This document shows positions 23,132 through 44,910 of a stretch of DNA of 48,009 nucleotides, in pieces. The stretch's first letter is position 1, and the number at the start of each line of letters is the position of its first letter. The notes under the pieces were generated by a model. It did no database searches and was not told the origin of the DNA. It worked only from the letters and a program-made list of their open reading frames with translations. The stretch comes from Flavobacteriales bacterium UBA979 (GTDB lineage Bacteria; Bacteroidota; Bacteroidia; Flavobacteriales_D; Sanyastnellaceae). A program made the translations under genes and the position numbers. The DNA lies in assembly GCA_002292325.1 (NCBI GenBank), contig DBBR01000034.1, positions 1 to 48,009 of the forward strand. The letters are read 5' to 3'.

Positions 23132-24547
23132 TTAAGTCATGGGCTTGGTTCCTGAGACGAATAGTTTTCCCTCACTCGATTCAACACCCGATGATTGATC
23201 GTAGCCAATGGTTGTCAATTGGATGTTGCAAAATCCCGAAGCACCCATCATTTCCTCCAATTGATTCGCAGTGCAATAATGTAAAAAAGCCAAATGTTCT
23301 CCTTTCGCTCTACGGTAGAAAACATCCCCAGATTCATAGCCTTGATTGTACAAACGTTGCATTTCAAATTGACTGATCGCTTCTGGGCCCCATTCATTGG
23401 GATCCGCTACATCGAATGCGTCGAAATAAAAACGTCCACCGGGTTTGAGCATGTCAAAAGCACTCTGAATGACCCCCTGTCGTATTTCCTCATTGGGTAA
23501 GTGACCGTATGCATAAAGCAAGGTAACCGCATCAAATGCTTCCTTCTCTAACCAAGTGGAAGGATCTCGAAGTGACCCTACCCGTACACTCAGTCCGCGG
23601 GCTTTAGCTTGGTCCGACATGTCATCGCAAAGGTCAAGGCCAACCATTTCATAGTTCAATCCGGACTTGGATTGCACCTCAATTGCTCTGCGCCCTGTTC
23701 CGCATGCCAAATGCATGACACGGCTTACAGAATGAACCTCTTGCAAAGCACGGAGGTCATCGGCGATTCGATCATCTATGCCTTCCGTGTATTGCTTGCG
23801 CTTTTGAATTTGATCATCCAACTCATCATAGCGGTTGGCATGCTCCGCAAAATAGTCCATCACCATCTGCTCTATGGCAGGAGCACTGGGCTTGGGAACG
23901 ACATTGCATTGGACATGAGAAGCCACATTCAATTCCTTGTATTCAAAAGCTTTTGGCTCAATGCTGTGGTAATGGTTTTCGCTCAAATGAACAGAGGCGG
24001 TCTGAGCCTCCTTGTTGCAAGTAAACTTCCGACCTGTTGGTAGGTCATAAAGAACCAACCCATCCAAATCGGCCAGGGCTGGACTGTAAAAATGCAACGT
24101 GACCAAGGCGGATGATTTACTTCCGTTGCGGATTTTATGGATCGTGCCATCGGGCTCTGGAACAACACCACCGGGGTGCGCGCGCAGCACATCCTGAATC
24201 TCAAGTTTGCCATCCCGCATGCGATAGGTGACATTTTCGAGCATTCCATCAAGGCAAATGACCGTACCCCAGAAGCCCGAATGATGGTGGACCGCACTTT
24301 CCACGCCAGGCGGCCAATGCAACAGCACGATCTCGAAAGGCTCCAAACACAAAATATTTCGCGCATAATCATTGGAATCCGTGACGGAAGGCACGTGTTT
24401 CTTCCAATCACTCGCTCTCCATTCTATGCCCTCTACCCAATCGCATAACGTCCTGTAGGTTAGCGGTTTTGGCGCCAATTCTGAAAGACGCGACACAAGC
24501 GATTTTAAATCCAGCTCCAATGTATCATTGATCATTTTCTCAAGCAT
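23132..24547 (-). CDS. Cysteine dioxygenase-like cupin fused to a methyltransferase
   Basis: A 471-residue cytoplasmic two-domain protein. Residues ~25-190 form a type I cysteine dioxygenase cupin. The putative iron ligands are His87 and His89 (VHHHSGFWG) and His137 (GTIHKIRN). Arg63 (YARNILC) would bind the substrate carboxylate. Tyr154 (LHFYSPA) is present, whereas the cross-linked Cys of animal enzymes is Gly, as in bacterial thiol dioxygenases. Residues ~225-471 form a class I SAM-dependent methyltransferase: glycine-rich VMHLACGTGRRA, then GLDLCDDM, and DMLKPGGRFYF as motif III. The expected reactions are oxidation of a thiol to a sulfinate and transfer of a methyl group, but the real substrate is unknown. 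It precedes the isoaspartyl peptidase by 3 bp and follows a serine hydrolase by 46 bp. The fusion is uninterrupted, with no frameshift. Confidence 0.88.
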   Translation of the reverse strand: MLEKMINDTLELDLKSLVSRLSELAPKPLTYRTLCDWVEGIEWRASDWKKHVPSVTDSNDYARNILCLEPFEIVLLHWPPGVESAVHHHSGFWGTVICLDGMLENVTYRMRDGKLEIQDVLRAHPGGVVPEPDGTIHKIRNGSKSSALVTLHFYSPALADLDGLVLYDLPTGRKFTCNKEAQTASVHLSENHYHSIEPKAFEYKELNVASHVQCNVVPKPSAPAIEQMVMDYFAEHANRYDELDDQIQKRKQYTEGIDDRIADDLRALQEVHSVSRVMHLACGTGRRAIEVQSKSGLNYEMVGLDLCDDMSDQAKARGLSVRVGSLRDPSTWLEKEAFDAVTLLYAYGHLPNEEIRQGVIQSAFDMLKPGGRFYFDAFDVADPNEWGPEAISQFEMQRLYNQGYESGDVFYRRAKGEHLAFLHYCTANQLEEMMGASGFCNIQLTTIGYDQSSGVESSEGKLFVSGTKPMT

Positions 24548-36377: not shown

Positions 36378-36611
36378 ATGTGGAAAAAAGAAGACCAAAA
36401 GCTTGTTCGGGAGTTTACATTCAACTCATTTCCCGGAGCGCTCGATTTCATTCAGGAGGTTGGGCTGATCGCTGAAGCACATCGTCACCACCCGACCATC
36501 ATCAATGCATACAACAAAGTCCGTCTAGAGCTAACCACGCGCGATGCCGGTGACACATTGACCTCCAAAGATTACGCACTCGCCGACGCCATCGATGCCT
36601 TAAGTCATTGA
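36378..36611 (+). CDS. phhB: Pterin-4a-carbinolamine dehydratase
   Basis: A 77-residue enzyme that dehydrates 4a-hydroxytetrahydrobiopterin so the cofactor can be re-reduced to tetrahydrobiopterin. It has the family signature AEAHRHHPTIINAYNKV, with the conserved His-His-Pro, and LTTRDAGDTLTSKDYALA near the end. Its length (about 75-105 residues usual) is at the short end but complete. It is 9 bp after the BaiN-type gene on the same strand. Its 3' end overlaps the convergent fatty-acid hydroxylase gene by 7 bp. No aromatic amino-acid hydroxylase is in the window, so its user could instead be the alkylglycerol-monooxygenase-like enzyme 6 kb away. That link is inference. Confidence 0.92.
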   Translation: MWKKEDQKLVREFTFNSFPGALDFIQEVGLIAEAHRHHPTIINAYNKVRLELTTRDAGDTLTSKDYALADAIDALSH

Positions 36612-37531
36612 AGTTGGACCTCTTCGTCATCTGCCGTTGGATCATAATCTTCTGTAGATTTTAATGTATTTAATTCACTTTTCGGATCCTGAGACCGAAT
36701 AAAAGGGAATAATAGCTGTACGTACCACGGCTCATTCATTCTATTCCAAGCCCCGAATTGCTCAGGGTAGCGACGGGTGATTTTGGCGGTCCCGAATAAC
36801 ACATCCCAGAGAAAAAGCAGGTTTCCATAATTTCCATTGGGATTTGAAATACCATCCGATGCCGTTAAGCCATGGTGGGCAAAATGTGTAGAAGGAGTTG
36901 AAATCGTGCGTTCAATGATCCAGGCCAATGGATGAAGCCACTTCGTACTGTACAAAACTCGATCCCATTTGGTTTCGCTGTGGGCAAGCAAGATGACCAA
37001 CAGCTTGACCGTCAGATAAACCGAATAAACAGACCCCATACCTAAAAACACCAAAACTGCAGACAGCCAAATCCCCGGCATCAATGCGTAGTACAAAAAA
37101 GCATTGCGGTACGTCACCAGCACCCCCATTTCCTGCACCACATGGTGGGGCCGATGCAGCTTCCAAAGTATGGGGTGATGATGGGATAACCGATGCCAGC
37201 CGTATTGAGTCAAATCATCAAAAAGCAAAAAACAGGCGAACTGAATCCAAATCGGCCAGGACAATAAAGCACTGTCCCATGCGGGAAGCAACCAAGCCAT
37301 CCCACCAAGCACCAATAAAAATATCCCGGGTTGAATGACCGTAGGCAAAACCGCCAAACTGATCAATTCAATTGAAAAATCATTCCTTGTTCGCTTGTCA
37401 TCGAAATATACCCCCCCTAACGCTTCAATTCCTCCGAGCACAAGAAGCGTCGCAAGGGGTATCAATTTGCTGTGTTCCACACCGAAAGATAAACATTCAA
37501 TGGCGACAACGTTTCGCAAGCCGCCGCTCAT
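36605..37531 (-). CDS. Fatty acid hydroxylase/sterol desaturase superfamily protein
   Basis: An integral-membrane di-iron enzyme of 308 residues taking the ATG at 37531; a TTG reading to 37645 would add 38 residues without an obvious signal. The His clusters are present: GWHRLSHHHPILWKLHRPHHVV supplies HRxxHH and HRPHH, and STHFAHHGLTASDG supplies the third. About five membrane segments flank them. In this superfamily the enzymes hydroxylate or desaturate sterols, fatty acids or carotenoids; the substrate cannot be told here. It is convergent with and overlaps the pterin dehydratase by 7 bp, and is divergent from the HmuY-like operon. Confidence 0.85.
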   Translation of the reverse strand: MSGGLRNVVAIECLSFGVEHSKLIPLATLLVLGGIEALGGVYFDDKRTRNDFSIELISLAVLPTVIQPGIFLLVLGGMAWLLPAWDSALLSWPIWIQFACFLLFDDLTQYGWHRLSHHHPILWKLHRPHHVVQEMGVLVTYRNAFLYYALMPGIWLSAVLVFLGMGSVYSVYLTVKLLVILLAHSETKWDRVLYSTKWLHPLAWIIERTISTPSTHFAHHGLTASDGISNPNGNYGNLLFLWDVLFGTAKITRRYPEQFGAWNRMNEPWYVQLLFPFIRSQDPKSELNTLKSTEDYDPTADDEEVQLQ

Positions 37532-37654
37532 ACCGCCATGCACGTAATTCAAGATTGCATTCAGTACGCTAATTCTTTCTTGACAAATCACTGACACAGG
37601 ACCTGCACGTTTACTCAATTTCACAAACCAACTTTGCGGCCACAATCCAAGAAA

Positions 37655-38890
37655 ATGAATAAGTTCTACTCTTTAATTTTGGTCACCTTGACCTCTTTTT
37701 CCAGCTACGCACAGGACGTAGCCTATGACAGCGTATCCCTCGGAGCGGACAATGCCAATATGGTTTGGTACAGCCTGTCCAATGGTGAAGTCGGTACTGC
37801 CGCGCTTGCAGATTGGCACATCGCTTTGGACGTCCGACCAATGGGCAGCACAGCTCGAATCAATGGAGGACTGGGCGTCCAATTGTTTGAATACGGGACG
37901 CTCGACCAATGGGAGACTGCCTCGCTCGAAGGATGGGAAATGAGCGAGCCACAATACAACGACCAAACCGATTGGTCCAATGCAGCCTTCAGCCAGGGTG
38001 GCGATGGCATGTTTGATTTTGGTTGGGGGGTCTACGATGTGATCACCCACGTTGTCACATCAGATCGAACCTACCTTCTCCAATTGGCGGATGAAAGTTG
38101 GAAGAAGGTTGCACTGCTCTCATTGGAAAGCGGCGAATACCAGTTGCAATTTGCGAACCTAGACGGCTCGGCAGAAACAATCCTGAACATCAATAAATCA
38201 GATTATCCGGGTAAACTCTTCGCATACTGCAACTTGGAGACCCAAACCGTAACCGATTTGGAACCCGCAGAGCCATGGGACTTTGTGTTTCTGAAGTACC
38301 TCGAGGATGTCGGGAACGGAAATTACTACGCGGTAGCTGGCGTCTTGAATCACCCGGCAGTTTCTGCGCAAGAAGTAAACGGATTGGCCGATCCCTTCCA
38401 AGACGGCAATTACAGCTTCGATTCATTCAGCATGGAAACGAATGCAATCGGTCACGATTGGAAGACCTATGTACCACAACAAGGTTATGTCCTAGAGAAT
38501 GAACGTTGCTATTTTGTAGCGGACCAGGACAGCGCATTTTGGCGCGTCGTGTTCACCGAATTTGAAGGAAGTGCGACAGGAAACATTGGTTTTGGTAAGG
38601 TCTCATTGACAGGTGCAAATGCCGTTATTGAAACAACTGCCGATGACTTGTTTGTGCTCTATCCCAATCCTGTTGCGCTCCAGGGATCAGTCAACCTGCA
38701 ATGGAAAGGCAGAACCACAAGCAATCACGAAGTAGCCATTTATGGTTTGGATGGTACGCTGAAATTTCGCCGCTCGATCTCCGGACAGATGACTCAAATT
38801 TCTCTCGAATCCCTCTCCAAAGGCATGTACATCGTTCGCGTGACCAATGGCAACGGGGGATTGACCACAGAACCGTTGATCGTCCAATAA
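37655..38890 (+). CDS. T9SS type A secreted protein with two HmuY-like domains
   Basis: A 411-residue secreted protein. The signal peptide is MNKFYSLILVTLTSFSSYAQ. The body divides into two related halves. Each starts with a Tyr/Phe-rich strand then an ...DWHIALD or ...PWDFVFL segment, and each has a TYLLQLADESWKKVAL-like or CYFVADQDSAFWRVVF-like strand pair. This is the layout of HmuY haemophores. The second half ends AIGHDWKTYV ... FEGSATG, which matches AIGYDWKTFD ... YDANGDKG in the lipoprotein encoded two genes later. The last ~75 residues (LYPNPVALQGS ... LSKGMYIVRV) are a type A T9SS sorting domain. It is the first gene of a three-gene operon, 3 bp before the receptor. The ligand, haem or another, is inferred from the family. 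Confidence 0.8.
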   Translation: MNKFYSLILVTLTSFSSYAQDVAYDSVSLGADNANMVWYSLSNGEVGTAALADWHIALDVRPMGSTARINGGLGVQLFEYGTLDQWETASLEGWEMSEPQYNDQTDWSNAAFSQGGDGMFDFGWGVYDVITHVVTSDRTYLLQLADESWKKVALLSLESGEYQLQFANLDGSAETILNINKSDYPGKLFAYCNLETQTVTDLEPAEPWDFVFLKYLEDVGNGNYYAVAGVLNHPAVSAQEVNGLADPFQDGNYSFDSFSMETNAIGHDWKTYVPQQGYVLENERCYFVADQDSAFWRVVFTEFEGSATGNIGFGKVSLTGANAVIETTADDLFVLYPNPVALQGSVNLQWKGRTTSNHEVAIYGLDGTLKFRRSISGQMTQISLESLSKGMYIVRVTNGNGGLTTEPLIVQ

Positions 38891-38893
38891 CGC

Positions 38894-40933
38894 ATGAAGC
38901 ACTGCATCGGATTCGTTCTTGCATTGGCATGGTCTGCTGTCCTTTTTGGACAGCAGACTGTGCCTTTATCCATTGACAGTGCCCTTTGGCAGTTGGTCGA
39001 ATTATCAAATGCCGTCGTCACAGGGGAGCGGGATGAAACAACTGCAGAGCAGGCCTTGCGTCCTACGCGCGTCATTAGCCGTCAGGCCATCGAGCAAAAC
39101 GCCTCACCCACACTCCACGAATTACTCAACCGTCAATTGAACTTTCGCGTGGCGCAAGATCCCGTGCTTGGCGCAGCAGCTTCATTGAATGGCCTGGGGG
39201 GCAACAACATCAATGTCCTCATCGATGGTGTGCCCCTTGCCGGCCGGCTCAATGGGGAACTCGATTTGAGTCAAGTGGCTCTTGACAACATTGAACGAAT
39301 CGAAATCATCAACGGACCCATGGCCGTGGAATACGGCACCAACTCGTTGGCTGGAACCGTACACCTCATCACCAAATCCCGGCGCCAACCGGGCCGTGAG
39401 GTGCGGTGGACCAGCCAATATGAAACCGTGGGAAGCCACACAAATTCCGTGTCATATGCTCAGCAGCTTGGTGGTTTTCAATGGGGAATCGAAGCCAATC
39501 AAAATTATTTCGATGGCTGGTCACCGGGTGATGCCTTGATTGACGGATTCTCCAACTTTGCAGCAGATTCCAATCGCGTCACCCTGTGGAATCCTAAGTT
39601 GCAGCGGAATGCACGTCTGCACAGCCAACTGACTTCGGGTCAATGGGTATTTCGCCCTTCTGTTCAGCTGTTGACCGAACAAATTGATAACCGAGGCGCA
39701 CCTCGAGCACCGTATGGACAAACGGCATTTGACAATACATACAGCACAACGCGCTGGATCCCAACGTTGCAATGCCGTTCATTCAATGACGAGGGTACCG
39801 TCTGGAACATCACTCAATCGTGGCAGCGTTACAGCCGGACTTCCGGGTCGTACTTAACAGACCTCGAAACCCTGCACCAAACATCGCTCTCCGATGAGCA
39901 GGATACGACCCGCATGTCCGTCTGGCAATCCCGAGGCACCCGTTACCTTTCTTGGTCAGAAAGAATCCATGGCTCAGCCGGTTGGGACGGAAGACATGAA
40001 ACCATTGCTGGGGGACGATTGACACAGCCGCAGCATGTGCTTGTTGACTTGGCCACATTTGCCACGGTCACATGGGAAAGCGAGGTGCAATCGCAACGAT
40101 TTGGTTTGAGGAAAGCTTTCAACTCGGCATTCAGGACTCCAGCTTTGCCCAGCTGGAATGGCATGTGGAAATGGAGAGCACACCGCTTGCGTTTGGCCTA
40201 TGCCAAAGGATTTCGCGCACCCACTCTAAAAGAACTGCACTTTCAATTTATCGATGTCAACCACCAGCTTTTTGGCAACACCAGCTTACGACCTGAAACA
40301 TCGCATTTCATGCAACTTCATTGGCAATTGAGCGGTGATTTGGATTTCTCTATTCGAGCATATTCCAATGTTGTCACAGATCAAATCGGCTTGGTAGACC
40401 AACTAGATGGCACCTATCAATACGTGAACTTTACCGGATTCTCCTCTCGAGGTGCGGAAGTTCAAGTCCATACTTCAAATGCGCAATTTGAATTGAATGT
40501 TGGCGTCAGCGGCTTCAAAGCACAGACAAATCTGGCAAATTCCGGAGAGGAAGCTGACATCTCGAAGCCAGCTGCACCTCTAACAGTGGAAGGCCAATCC
40601 GAATTGACTTGGAACATCAACTCACAACTGCAAAGTTCCATTTTCGTTAAATACAACGGCGCCCGACAACGTGTCATTCAAGACGCCGATGGTGCCTTGA
40701 AATTGGTTACGGCACCCGCCTATACTTTGCTGGACTTCAATCTCCTCAACTGGAGCAGCCCCGCCGATCGACTTCACATTGCGCTCCGCTTCAAGAACTT
40801 GTTGAATGTCACATCCGTTTCAAACGGCGTAAACACGTCCGGTCCTGAAGCCCATACTGCAGGCCTGACTCCCATTGCTTGGGGTCGGAGTGCTGTTGTT
40901 CGACTGACCTACCAATGGAACCAAAACCGATGA
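38894..40933 (+). CDS. TonB-dependent receptor, HmuR-like
   Basis: A 679-residue outer-membrane receptor: signal peptide (KHCIGFVLALAWSAVLFGQ), plug domain, then a 22-strand barrel. The plug has RVISRQAIEQNASPT, LNGLGGNNINVLIDGVPL and IERIEIINGPMAVEYGTNS. No carboxypeptidase-like N-terminal extension or SusC signature is present, unlike glycan receptors. The barrel carries the FRAP box found in haem receptors (GFRAPTLKEL, from residue 440) followed by NTSLRPE. Two histidines (His449, His457) lie between them, in the region where haem receptors carry the axial His. It sits 3 bp after the secreted HmuY-like gene and overlaps the HmuY lipoprotein gene by 4 bp, mirroring HmuY/HmuR of Porphyromonas. 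Confidence 0.92.
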   Translation: MKHCIGFVLALAWSAVLFGQQTVPLSIDSALWQLVELSNAVVTGERDETTAEQALRPTRVISRQAIEQNASPTLHELLNRQLNFRVAQDPVLGAAASLNGLGGNNINVLIDGVPLAGRLNGELDLSQVALDNIERIEIINGPMAVEYGTNSLAGTVHLITKSRRQPGREVRWTSQYETVGSHTNSVSYAQQLGGFQWGIEANQNYFDGWSPGDALIDGFSNFAADSNRVTLWNPKLQRNARLHSQLTSGQWVFRPSVQLLTEQIDNRGAPRAPYGQTAFDNTYSTTRWIPTLQCRSFNDEGTVWNITQSWQRYSRTSGSYLTDLETLHQTSLSDEQDTTRMSVWQSRGTRYLSWSERIHGSAGWDGRHETIAGGRLTQPQHVLVDLATFATVTWESEVQSQRFGLRKAFNSAFRTPALPSWNGMWKWRAHRLRLAYAKGFRAPTLKELHFQFIDVNHQLFGNTSLRPETSHFMQLHWQLSGDLDFSIRAYSNVVTDQIGLVDQLDGTYQYVNFTGFSSRGAEVQVHTSNAQFELNVGVSGFKAQTNLANSGEEADISKPAAPLTVEGQSELTWNINSQLQSSIFVKYNGARQRVIQDADGALKLVTAPAYTLLDFNLLNWSSPADRLHIALRFKNLLNVTSVSNGVNTSGPEAHTAGLTPIAWGRSAVVRLTYQWNQNR

Positions 40934-41907
40934 ATCACAGGAAATACCTTCCAAGCCTCGGACTCCTCCTTGTGTTGTGCGGATGCATCGAAAAGGAACT
41001 TGCCATTCCTGTGAAGCCGGTCGGAAAGCTTGTTTCGCACGAAGTTTCCATCGGCGCAGAGTATGACGCGCGCGTTTATTACAGCTTACAACGCAGCGAG
41101 GTGGTTGCCACCCATTCTCCTTTGGACTGGTGCCTCAAGCTCACCTTGCTTCCTGAATCTGGGAAGGTGGCAGTATTGCTAAATTCGAGCCGGACCATGC
41201 GCATTGCCAAAGACACCCCTGGAGGTTCAGAGCAGGGCTTGACCGACGAACAATTAGAGGCGCTTGAGTGGCGTATTGATCCGCCCTCAGGCTGGTCACC
41301 TGATTCAACCGAAGCGCAATTTGACGTTGGAGAGTCGTTTTTCATTGACTTGGGTTATGGGGCTGAGAATGTGCAATTGGGAAAGCGCCGAATCACAATC
41401 CAGGGTGCTTCAGAAAACGGAATTGAAGCCAGAATTGACCTTCTCAATTCGGCGCAAGACGGGTCCGTCATGGTCCCCCTGAGCACATCACGACCCTTTG
41501 GATATTTGAGTGTTCTAAATGCGGACTCCCCGGATATTGAACCTCCGAGTGACCAATGGGAGCTATTGTTGACCTCTTACACAGAGCTTTTAGAAGGTAC
41601 GATTCCCTATCAAGTCACCGGAATACTCACACCGAGTTCACGTGTGCAAGTCATTGAACCGCAGGATTTCGACTGGGAAGAATTTGGTCAACTGGATTGG
41701 TCTGGCTTCTCGGCGACTGGGAATTGGAATGCCATTGGTTACGATTGGAAAACATTTGATCTCGACGCTGGAGTTTACAGCATAGATGCGAGTAATCTCT
41801 ATGGCATCGTGACTTCTGAAGGACGTGAATTTCAACTCAGGATGCTCGACTTTTATGATGCGAATGGTGACAAAGGCTATTTCACCTTTGAAGCCTTTGA
41901 GCGTTAA
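40930..41907 (+). CDS. hmuY: HmuY family lipoprotein
   Basis: A 325-residue lipoprotein taking the ATG at 40930, which overlaps the receptor stop by 4 bp. The lipobox is LVLCGC. The C-terminal ~75 residues contain AIGYDWKTFDLDAGVY, a classic HmuY signature, and LRMLDFYDANGDKGYFTF, which closely resembles the HmuY C-terminus. The N-terminal part starts EYDARVYYSLQRSEVV with SPLDWCLKL, the beginning of the same fold. HmuY binds haem at the cell surface and hands it to the TonB receptor. P. gingivalis HmuY uses two His; here the ligand residues cannot be aligned with confidence, so another porphyrin-like ligand is possible. It is the third gene of the operon. Confidence 0.85.
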   Translation: MNHRKYLPSLGLLLVLCGCIEKELAIPVKPVGKLVSHEVSIGAEYDARVYYSLQRSEVVATHSPLDWCLKLTLLPESGKVAVLLNSSRTMRIAKDTPGGSEQGLTDEQLEALEWRIDPPSGWSPDSTEAQFDVGESFFIDLGYGAENVQLGKRRITIQGASENGIEARIDLLNSAQDGSVMVPLSTSRPFGYLSVLNADSPDIEPPSDQWELLLTSYTELLEGTIPYQVTGILTPSSRVQVIEPQDFDWEEFGQLDWSGFSATGNWNAIGYDWKTFDLDAGVYSIDASNLYGIVTSEGREFQLRMLDFYDANGDKGYFTFEAFER

Positions 41908-41919
41908 AAATCTCGTTCA

Positions 41920-42186
41920 TTACTGCTTCGAAGGGCACTTGTGATCTCCGTGGGTGCAAAAAACGCAGCAATCGTCTCCTTCTGGATGCAGGGTCGTACC
42001 ACAGTGCTTGCAATCATAAGAAATCACGCAGTATTCCGTCGGAAGCGTTTCCAATTCTTGGTGTCCACATTTTGGACAGGTAATATTGGATGTTGTGCTC
42101 GTCATTCCTTGGTTTAAACCGCAAGACAAAAATCCAACCAATGGAAGCCAAAGTAACACGATGCGAATTGCGTTCATGGAATTCAT
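41920..42186 (-). CDS. GDCC-motif lipoprotein with zinc-ribbon-like Cys pairs
   Basis: An 88-residue lipoprotein from the ATG at 42186 (42177 is a second candidate), with lipobox GFLSC (Cys22). The mature domain has two CxxC pairs (ITCPKCGHQ, YDCKHCGTT) and ends in EGDDCCVFCTHGDHKCPSKQ. The GD(D)CCVxC ... CP pattern resembles the family I recall as 'GDCCVxC domain-containing (seleno)protein', in which one Cys can be selenocysteine. Here all are Cys. The function is unknown; metal binding or redox is likely. Its start lies 11 bp after the stop of the AGMO-like gene on the same strand, so they are probably cotranscribed. It is convergent with the HmuY operon. Confidence 0.75.
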   Translation of the reverse strand: MNSMNAIRIVLLWLPLVGFLSCGLNQGMTSTTSNITCPKCGHQELETLPTEYCVISYDCKHCGTTLHPEGDDCCVFCTHGDHKCPSKQ

Positions 42187-42197
42187 TTGTGATGAGG

Positions 42198-43421
42198 TCA
42201 TAAGATCGCGGGTTTTCGCAAGGATGCTGCCCAATACGTCAGCCCGGCTGATACCAGGGCCAATAAACACCAGATGGCATAAGCTAGTGGAGGCCCTGAA
42301 ACCAGCATGCCCATGACAGGAATGAAGCACAAGTCTGCGAACCAGGCAATCACCAACCGCACCCGATCCAATCTGCTATCCCACAATTCACCAACCGCGG
42401 CAAGTGCTACTAAAACCCAAGCCAAAGCCATTGCCAATTGCCAAGATGGAATGGTCTTCTCAGCTGCCAACGCGAGCAATGCCACGGCCAAAAGCATGAC
42501 CCACCGACCAAGCAGCAATCCGGCCATGAATGAACTCGGGCGCGGATTAAACTTAGTTTGTGGTCCAACAATTTTCGGTGCCGCCTGCGGACCGCCGATG
42601 CTTTCAGGATACCAACCCGGAGGGGCAAATAAAAAGCGCAATTTGTCCGCCCAACCAGGAATACTCTGGAGGTCTTTCCAAAGGTCAGCTACGGGCTTCC
42701 ATTGTGCTCGCACAGGATTGAAAGACTCCGTCGGTCGCGTAATACCGTAGGTCGGCTGGACAATCTCCTTTTGAAAGGTGCCGAAAATGCGGTCCCACAC
42801 AATGAAAACGCCCGCATGATTGCGGTCAATGTATTCGGGATTTCGACCGTGGTGAACGCGATGGTGCGAAGGAGTATTGAACACCCACTCGAATGGACCC
42901 AAACGTTCAATTAATTCAGTATGAATCCAAAATTGATACAAAAGGTTGATGGCCATACTGGTCAAAAACATCTCCGGAGGAAATCCGAGAATCGCAAGAG
43001 GCCAATACACCCACATTAAGAGGACTTTTTGAAGAACACTCTGACGCAACGCAACGCCCAAGTTGTAATCTTCACTCTGATGGTGAACTTGGTGACCGAT
43101 CCAAAGGATATTGACCTCATGGCTCAGCCGGTGAGCCCAATAATAGGCAAAATCAGAGAGCACAAAAGTCGCCACCCAAATAGCCCAGTGGCCATCCAAT
43201 TCCCATGGCCTCCATGATGCAGCCCAAAAAAAGACGGCTGTGTAAGCGCCCACGGTCAAGACCTTGGAAAACAAAGCACTGCTCTGATCCATGATCCCAC
43301 AGCCAATATTGGCGAGGGTATCGCCAAGGCGATAAACGTTCCTTCCCTTCCATTGGTCCCAGGCCACCTCTAACCCGATCAGGGCAAAAAATATGGGGAT
43401 GGACAGGACGATGAGGTTCAT
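42198..43421 (-). CDS. Alkylglycerol monooxygenase-like (AGMO/TMEM195) hydroxylase
   Basis: A 407-residue membrane enzyme of the fatty acid hydroxylase superfamily, taking the ATG at 43421 (longer readings to 43676 lack a sensible N-terminus). The iron-binding His clusters are HRLSHE (His97, His101), [11 protein letters not shown] (His110, 113, 114; Glu117) and [13 protein letters not shown] (His186, 187, 190, 191). The surrounding text, including [19 protein letters not shown] and [16 protein letters not shown], closely matches animal alkylglycerol monooxygenase. That enzyme cleaves the O-alkyl ether bond of ether lipids using tetrahydrobiopterin. It has an added C-terminal membrane region with 5-6 helices. 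A GDCC lipoprotein follows 11 bp downstream. The pterin dependence in bacteria is not established here. Confidence 0.9.
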
Positions 43422-43514
43422 GGAGTTAAAATTAGGACTTAGCTGTTTATTTTCTGCGCAATCACCTGAATCCGTTCCATTGCTCTTTTGTGTCAATGTT
43501 GCCAGGATTGAAAC

Positions 43515-43522
43515 TACTTTTG
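43515..43522 (+). promoter_or_regulatory. Putative -7 element of the RimB-RimK gene
   Basis: TACTTTTG matches TAnnTTTG and lies 26 bp before the ATG at 43549. The upstream TTG/TTTTG candidates are at spacings of 13 and 24 nt rather than 19-21, so the -33 part is weak. The AGMO-like gene reads away on the other strand. Confidence 0.4.
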
Positions 43523-43548
43523 CGCCCTTATTTTTTGCTGATAGCAAT

Positions 43549-44910
43549 ATGAACATTATCGGAAGTGCAGAATGGTGCCGGTTCCAAGAACTAGGCATGC
43601 CCGCAGTGAAGGCTCGAGTTGATTCAGGTGCAAAGACATCTACCATCCAAGCCGATAACATCAAACCATTCGTCAAGGACGGTCAAGAATGGGTCAAGTT
43701 TGAAATCAATCCAATTCAGGATAATCGGAGCATCATCATCAGCTGCGAAAAGCGCATAATCGCGCGTAAGATGATCAAAAACACCTCGGGCATCACAGAG
43801 GAGCGAATTGCCATTCGGACCTCCATGCAAATAGGTGATCAAATGCACGAGATTGATTTAACGCTTGCTGATCGTAACTCCATGGAATTTCGCATGCTGC
43901 TGGGGCGAGATGCATTCAAGGATCGATTTCTGGTAGACGTGTCGAAAGAGTTTGTTCAAGGAGAAATATCGGATGAAGAGCTCAACCAGCTTTACAAACT
44001 ATTCGTCAAGGAGAAAGACGGACTGCGCATTGGTGTGCTGGCCTCCAACCCGAATCTTTACAGCAATAAACGCATCATGGAAGCAGGGGAAGCCAAAGGC
44101 CATGAAATGGTTTTTCTCAACGTTGAGCACGCTTACATGAAGTTGGACGTGCACTCCCCAGAAATCCGTTACCGAGGTGGTAATATTCTGAATCAATTTG
44201 ATGCGATCATCCCTCGTATTAAGCCTGCCGTGACGTTCTATGGCTGTGCGCTTTTGCGCCAATTCAAAAACCTGGGGGTGTATTGCTTGAACTCTGCTGA
44301 TGCAATTAGTCAGTCGCGCGACAAACTTTTTGCGTCCCTTCTCTTTTCTGAAAACGATATCAATATTCCCATAACGGGATTCGCAAAATCACCAATGGAC
44401 ACCAAAGACCTCATCCGAATGGTCAATGGCGCTCCGCTCATCATTAAACTTCTTGAATCGACTCAGGGACGAGGCGTGGTTCTCGCAGAAACGAATAAGG
44501 CTGCAGAAAGTGTGATTAATGCCTTCAAGTCTGTCAAAACCAACATCCTTGTGCAAGAGTTCATCAAAGAGGCCAATGGCCAGGATATTCGGTGCTTCGT
44601 CGTCAATGGAAAAGTGGTCGCAGCAATGCAGCGCCAGGCTGAAAAGGGCGAATTCAGAGCCAATATTCATCAAGGAGGCAGCGCCTCCCTGATCAAGATT
44701 ACCGCTGAAGAACGAAAACTGGCGATCAAAGCAACCAAAACCCTCAATCTCGCTGTAGCAGGCGTGGACATCATACGCTCCAACAAAGGGCCTTTGCTGC
44801 TAGAAGTGAATTCATCCCCCGGATTGGAGGGCATAGAAAAAGCAACCGGCGCCGACATCGCCCAGACCATGATCCAAGCCATTGAACGAAAGTTGAAATT
44901 TAACGTCTGA
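43549..44910 (+). CDS. rimK: RimB-RimK fusion: retropepsin-like domain plus ATP-grasp ligase
   Basis: A 453-residue cytoplasmic protein. Residues ~1-140 form a RimB-type (putative ATP-dependent zinc protease, retropepsin-like) domain with the signature [16 protein letters not shown], where DSGA carries the active-site Asp, and [10 protein letters not shown]. Residues ~155-453 are a RimK ATP-grasp ligase: [35 protein letters not shown] with the ATP-binding loop, and [19 protein letters not shown] with the metal-binding Glu/Asn. In E. coli, RimK adds glutamates to ribosomal protein S6 and RimB trims or modulates this; the two are separate genes there. Here they are fused, so writing and editing would be coupled. 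The start is chosen at MNIIGSAEW; longer readings have no support. It is convergent with doxX. Confidence 0.93.

Follow-up and report, generated by a model that had tools for sequence, protein, structure and literature searches.

A conserved operon of Bacteroidia, probably for haem uptake, in which genes for a type IX-exported and a lipoprotein form of a double HmuY-like protein flank a TonB-dependent receptor gene

Three closely packed genes of Flavobacteriales bacterium UBA979, in which a TonB-dependent receptor gene is flanked by genes for two HmuY-like proteins, raise the question of which ligand is taken up and how the two proteins might share the work. The genes lie in the window, i.e. 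the whole stretch of DNA that was analysed (48,009 nucleotides of contig DBBR01000034.1). The spacing described in the initial annotation is correct: gene 1 is separated from the receptor gene by 3 bp, and the receptor and lipoprotein genes overlap by 4 bp (ATGA; Table 1). The next gene of the window after the lipoprotein gene is on the opposite strand, and the operon contains neither a haem-processing insert nor a chelatase gene. The operon is probably responsible for the uptake of haem or a closely related iron-porphyrin, involving both a haemophore exported by the type IX secretion system (T9SS) and a tethered one.

Table 1. Coordinates of the predicted operon and its parts in the window
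Feature	Position	Strand	Basis
Gene 1, T9SS-exported double HmuY-like protein, 411 aa	37655..38890	+	TIGR04183/PF18962; PF14064 matches in family
Type A T9SS C-terminal sorting domain, gene 1 residues 335-411	38657..38887	+	TIGR04183
TonB-dependent receptor, 679 aa; FRAP at 440, His457, NTSL at 462	38894..40933	+	PF07715
Double HmuY-like lipoprotein, 325 aa; lipobox LCGC at 16-19 (by eye)	40930..41907	+	PF14064; Cys19

The type A T9SS domain claimed for the C-terminus of gene 1 is recognised above cut-off by two models, TIGR04183 (42.7 bits, cut-off 23) and PF18962 (42.7 bits, cut-off 27), and the N-terminus is signal-peptide-like as judged by eye. Two HmuY-like units occupy residues ~21-330. 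The body of gene 1 itself did not match the Pfam HmuY model (PF14064) at E<=1, and the lipoprotein remained just below its cut-off (25.9 bits, cut-off 27); the cut-off is reached by neither protein of the window, and relatives of both match the model, with 54 of the 71 aligned gene 1 family members and 22 of the 23 lipoprotein family members found at E<=0.01. The lipobox cysteine (Cys19) is conserved in 22 of the 23 lipoproteins. Profile comparison (hhalign) of the two families showed that they are homologous over the body (Prob 100, E 3.5e-50), and the AIG(H/Y)DWKT(Y/F) motif, which the initial annotation had described as shared with the lipoprotein, is indeed common to both proteins, its G, W and K being invariant in an alignment of 56 sequences of both.

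Searches of the PDB with single sequences yielded just weak sorting-domain matches for gene 1 and only weak matches to designed proteins for the lipoprotein. Against solved HmuY-like chains, the T9SS family profile alone matched 8b6a (E 8.1e-5) and HmuY 3h8t (E 1.9e-4), and the lipoprotein family profile alone reached 8b6a only at E 0.089. A joint profile of both bodies matched 8b6a (E 6.6e-7) and 3h8t (E 4.6e-6), aligning with their N- and C-terminal parts.

The proposal that the body of gene 1 consists of two HmuY-like halves was borne out, as the N- and C-terminal halves of the T9SS family resemble each other (Prob 96.0, E 4.3e-9, versus Prob 1.1 for the column-reversed control). The lipoprotein likewise looks like an internal HmuY duplication, which the initial annotation had missed: its family halves align with Prob 91.8 and E 7.4e-7 (column-reversed control, Prob 0.2). 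The match of the window lipoprotein to PF14064 is one stretched alignment (residues 45-321), which alone would suggest a single domain with an insertion. In some relatives, e.g. in a T9SS protein of genome G213 (model positions 1-143 and 65-153) and in G200 and G150 lipoproteins, the Pfam model matches both halves separately. When three single-unit HmuY proteins were aligned and used as the reference, they detected the T9SS N and C halves with Prob 96.5 and 77.4, and the lipoprotein N and C halves with Prob 47.3 (the weakest) and 95.7, respectively (reversed controls <=0.5). When HmuY sequences were used singly, the results were weaker and uneven (T9SS C half, Prob <=5.3; lipoprotein N half, <=37.8), and the single-unit protein of region L204 scored low against three of the four halves; the T9SS C half and the lipoprotein N half also resemble each other weakly (Prob 42.3). 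The best reading of these comparisons is that each protein would comprise two HmuY units and not one unit of ~200 aa, the lipoprotein N unit and the T9SS C unit being the least certain in relation to single-unit HmuY. In region L176 (genome G320), a single 770-aa frame carries two gene 1 bodies in tandem ahead of the sorting domain.

A tree of 83 T9SS bodies and 83 lipoproteins is divided by one branch, with none of the 166 sequences misplaced; the node support at this split is unusable because of re-rooting. The lipoprotein is read as an old paralogue of gene 1 with the same two-unit build. The paralogues differ consistently in one segment. His132 of gene 1, conserved in 65 of 71 family members, lies within a GWGxYxxxTH pattern that is missing from the lipoproteins in the compared alignment, and the pattern GWxxYxxxTH occurs in the single-unit HmuY of region L214. 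By its position only, His132 is a candidate haem ligand; it may be equivalent to His134 or His166 of P. gingivalis HmuY, which are named in PMC9331221, the stretch in question being outside the joint-profile alignment.

The three-gene order was looked for in relatives and in the class. Gene 1 was matched in 53 of 60 genomes (its own and 59 relatives), many at the sorting domain only. Among the 20 fetched regions of relatives with a long gene 1 match, 17 have co-oriented gene 1, receptor and lipoprotein genes in this order, and in the remaining three the contig ends inside the receptor gene (two) or inside gene 1 (one). In the class, 115 of the 296 genomes sampled contain gene 1 at E<=1e-20; 118 regions were obtained from 112 of these 115 genomes (five twice), a stray 1 kb piece was dropped, and 117 regions were examined, a set that does not contain the window's own genome and G043 (fetched earlier) or G338 (E 1.0e-23). 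The co-oriented order is present in 97 of the 117 regions; in 70 of these the three genes are strictly adjacent, and in the other 27 there are inserted genes. The arrangement first noticed in the window is found in both samples. Two further regions lost gene 1 to the open-frame filter, and 18 fail the order rule, among them two antisense-frame artefacts (L125, L169) and a contig end (L109). The order is rearranged to receptor, lipoprotein and gene 1 in L121, L130 and L135; the lipoprotein was not recognised at the locus in L132 and L156, and neither the receptor nor the lipoprotein was recognised beside gene 1 in several regions (e.g. L105, L190, L191 and L196). For the three genes, pairwise distances show correlations of 0.70-0.75, against a maximum of 0.18 in 200 permutations; a shared species history alone could be enough to produce this.

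In the mechanism that we propose, the gene 1 protein would leave the cell through the type IX system and capture haem on the surface or beyond it. The lipoprotein would be held at the outer membrane, offering haem to the receptor or capping it, and the TonB-dependent receptor would pull haem in. That the proteins are exposed at the surface, that they bind haem and that haem moves from secreted protein to lipoprotein to receptor we only infer. The most specific form of this mechanism is a relay of two haemophores, in which the T9SS-released double HmuY forages away from the cell and passes haem to the receptor-docked double HmuY lipoprotein; the relay would be the main haem supply where synthesis has been lost, and in other lineages it would be combined with interchangeable chelatase, reductase or ABC/HemS modules. 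We put this forward tentatively, as a doubtful proposal, and the data fit parallel capture as well. In parallel capture, which we hold to be a serious possibility, both HmuY proteins would bind haem and supply the receptor independently of each other; the T9SS copy would act far from the cell or on surface polysaccharide, and the lipoprotein close to the receptor. The two-unit build common to both proteins agrees with such an arrangement, as do their similar distance correlations with the receptor (0.697 and 0.747). However, the consistent differences between the paralogues (the GWGxYxxxTH segment), together with their joint retention in 97 of the 117 regions, suggest that the two proteins have distinct jobs.

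The strongest evidence on what the operon takes up comes from the genes that are inserted, in other lineages, between gene 1 and the receptor gene. In region L088, the inserted genes encode (i) a periplasmic binding protein (PF01497), (ii) a FecCD permease (PF01032), (iii) a haem ABC ATPase (290 bits with the haem model NF010068, cut-off 261) and (iv) HemS (262.5 bits with PF05171, cut-off 24). With profiles seeded from L088, ten of the 117 regions (L088, L092, L096, L106, L114, L118, L125, L132, L169 and L202) were found to have HemS no more than 9 kb from gene 1, and in seven of the ten it lies between gene 1 and the receptor gene. Within the same distance, a CbiX-like exported chelatase is encoded in 14 of the 117 regions (51.1 bits with PF01903 in L095, cut-off 22) and a second chelatase type in one more; PepSY proteins occur in nine, FMN-binding/4Fe-4S proteins in five, DUF6607 proteins in ten and LuxR-type response regulators in 15. 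For these groups of inserted genes the curated models were run on one or two members per group. The CbiX-like, PepSY and FMN-binding/4Fe-4S genes are candidates for extracytoplasmic removal of iron from haem. In L086, L087, L089, L090, L093-L095, L097, L101, L107-L110 and L112, the CbiX-like exported chelatase occurs together with a PepSY or FMN-binding/4Fe-4S membrane protein, inside the operon or next to it. DUF6607 (PF20311) genes adjoin the operon or lie inside it in L029, L031, L033, L035 and L052 in addition to the ten class regions, and no paper naming this domain was found in the open-licence literature. Model searches with PF14064 and PF20311 gave no match in the window's own genome or in any control genome, which makes them uninformative.

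The receptor contains a plug domain (PF07715, 68.2 bits, cut-off 23.9) and FRAP and NxxL boxes with His457 between them. The initial annotation had pointed to two histidines near the FRAP box; His457 is conserved in 112 of the 115 receptors of the fetched loci, whereas position 449 is a histidine in just eight of the 115. The FRAP-His-NxxL motif is that of haem and haemoglobin receptors, for which mutagenesis elsewhere gave differing results, as described in PMC9331221. The NCBIfam haem receptor model TIGR01785 scores 108 bits, well below its cut-off of 316.85; the best NCBIfam model is that of the B12 receptor (TIGR01779), also well below cut-off (127.1 bits, cut-off 599.7). The latter match would fit another tetrapyrrole, e.g. 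a corrinoid or a product of pigment breakdown, as the ligand in place of haem, and so would the BtuB structures as the nearest solved sequences to the receptor and the only FecCD permease found in the window's genome (G000), for which the best model is BtuC, below cut-off (155.9 versus 334), no ligand-naming model scoring above cut-off. Against this reading, which we consider unlikely, stand the NF010068-positive ATPase together with HemS inside an orthologous operon, the HemS-like genes near gene 1 in ten of the 117 regions, the conserved FRAP-His-NxxL motif and the Rfam scan of the window, in which no family, cobalamin riboswitch included, reached its gathering score. Cobalamin, raised as a ligand by BtuB as the best receptor model, was downgraded because haem genes sit in orthologous operons. 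Haem as the ligand, postulated from the start, is thus supported by context and motif, and the apparent absence of haem biosynthesis genes from the lineage is in line with it.

Among 22 genomes of the genus, the window's own included, HemB (ALAD), HemE (URO-D) and HemH (ferrochelatase) were detected in 13 each and were missing from the same nine (G000, G002, G003, G005, G010, G015, G016, G017 and G021), the three absences not being independent of each other because the genes cluster in some genomes (e.g. G001 and G012). Genome G000, that of the window, is 74% complete, and the sister G010, with gene 1 at 80% identity, is 99% complete. COX1 was found in 20 of the 22 genomes and not in G000 and G007. 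Haem auxotrophy is probable in the window's lineage; with haem biosynthesis apparently lost, the operon may therefore supply haem itself and not iron only. No report of haem auxotrophy in Flavobacteriales was found in the open-licence literature. HmuY proteins are encoded in seven of the nine genomes without the haem genes versus four of the 13 with them (Fisher P 0.08 two-sided and 0.04 one-sided, uncorrected for relatedness); P is 0.19 (two-sided) when G005, where only the lipoprotein gene and, by eye, the end of the receptor gene precede the contig end, is counted as operon-less. Within the genus, the association of the operon with a lack of haem genes is therefore no more than suggestive. 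Genome G015 (96% complete) was found to have none of HemB, HemE, HemH and HmuY proteins. HemS was not found in any of the 22 genomes, which tells against the haem reading; a FecCD permease was found in 21.

Several known systems share parts of this organisation. The hmuYRSTUV operons of P. gingivalis and Bacteroides likewise combine an HmuY-type haemophore and a TonB-dependent receptor (PMC12583661). In the window, however, two duplicated HmuY proteins, one T9SS-exported and one a lipoprotein, flank the receptor, and hmuS and hmuTUV do not follow the receptor gene, the next genes being that of the lipoprotein and one on the opposite strand. An HmuY-like haem-binding protein and a receptor are also encoded in one iron-regulated operon of F. 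psychrophilum (HfpR/HfpY), which differs in its gene order (receptor, DoxX-family gene, HfpY) and in having a single HmuY-like protein (PMC9331221). The Iht system of P. gingivalis (IhtABCDE), composed of a receptor, a CbiK-like lipoprotein (IhtB), thought to take iron out of haem, and an ABC transporter, resembles the CbiX-containing operons of the class, but no HmuY is part of its description, and the window operon has no chelatase gene (PMC10913741). An HmuY lipoprotein and HmuR are reported in the secretome of T. maritimum (PMC10288586). A protein similar to that of gene 1 by description is C6N29_01035 of F. columnare, which has an HmuY domain and a Por_Secre_tail in one protein reported as T9SS-secreted; its description mentions no linked receptor and lipoprotein (PMC9618737). 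When this gene was deleted, neither growth nor virulence was impaired in the conditions used (PMC9618737), which weighs against the mechanism proposed here. Like the failure of the Pfam model to detect the body of window gene 1, this result would agree with a T9SS protein whose ligands are haemoproteins or surfaces in place of free haem, the lipoprotein alone handling haem. However, the gene 1 N unit is the best of the four halves against single-unit HmuY (Prob 96.5) and keeps GWxxYxxxTH as in the single-unit HmuY of L214, and we regard this reading as improbable, the least likely of those considered.

A possible two-stage relay had initially been presented as one not seen described. One part of it, a T9SS-exported HmuY, is not new, having already been reported in F. 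columnare (PMC9618737). For the paired operon, in the open-licence literature (titles and abstract starts), no description was found of the T9SS-HmuY/receptor/HmuY-lipoprotein order, nor of an HmuY with duplicated units.

The best-known haemophores are those of animal-associated bacteria, and the widely conserved pair of an exported and an anchored protein suggests a haem-capture route for other Bacteroidia. As the pair coincides with a lack of haem genes in some members of one genus, haem auxotrophy becomes testable in these Flavobacteriales. Candidate steps in the extracytoplasmic removal of iron from haem are suggested by the inserted CbiX-like, PepSY and FMN/4Fe-4S genes.

Further observations concern the surroundings of the operon. 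Fatty acid hydroxylase family genes are present on each side of it (36605-37645 and 42198-43676, both on the minus strand), and a GDCCVxC domain (seleno)protein is encoded just downstream (41920-42330, minus strand; NF041374, 77.2 bits, cut-off 40). A 471-aa frame at 23132-24547 (minus strand) joins cysteine dioxygenase-like and methyltransferase domains. Elsewhere in the window, an ammonium transporter gene is followed by a gene for a 948-aa protein with a CHU_C type IX secretion signal (PF13585; 7930-10776).
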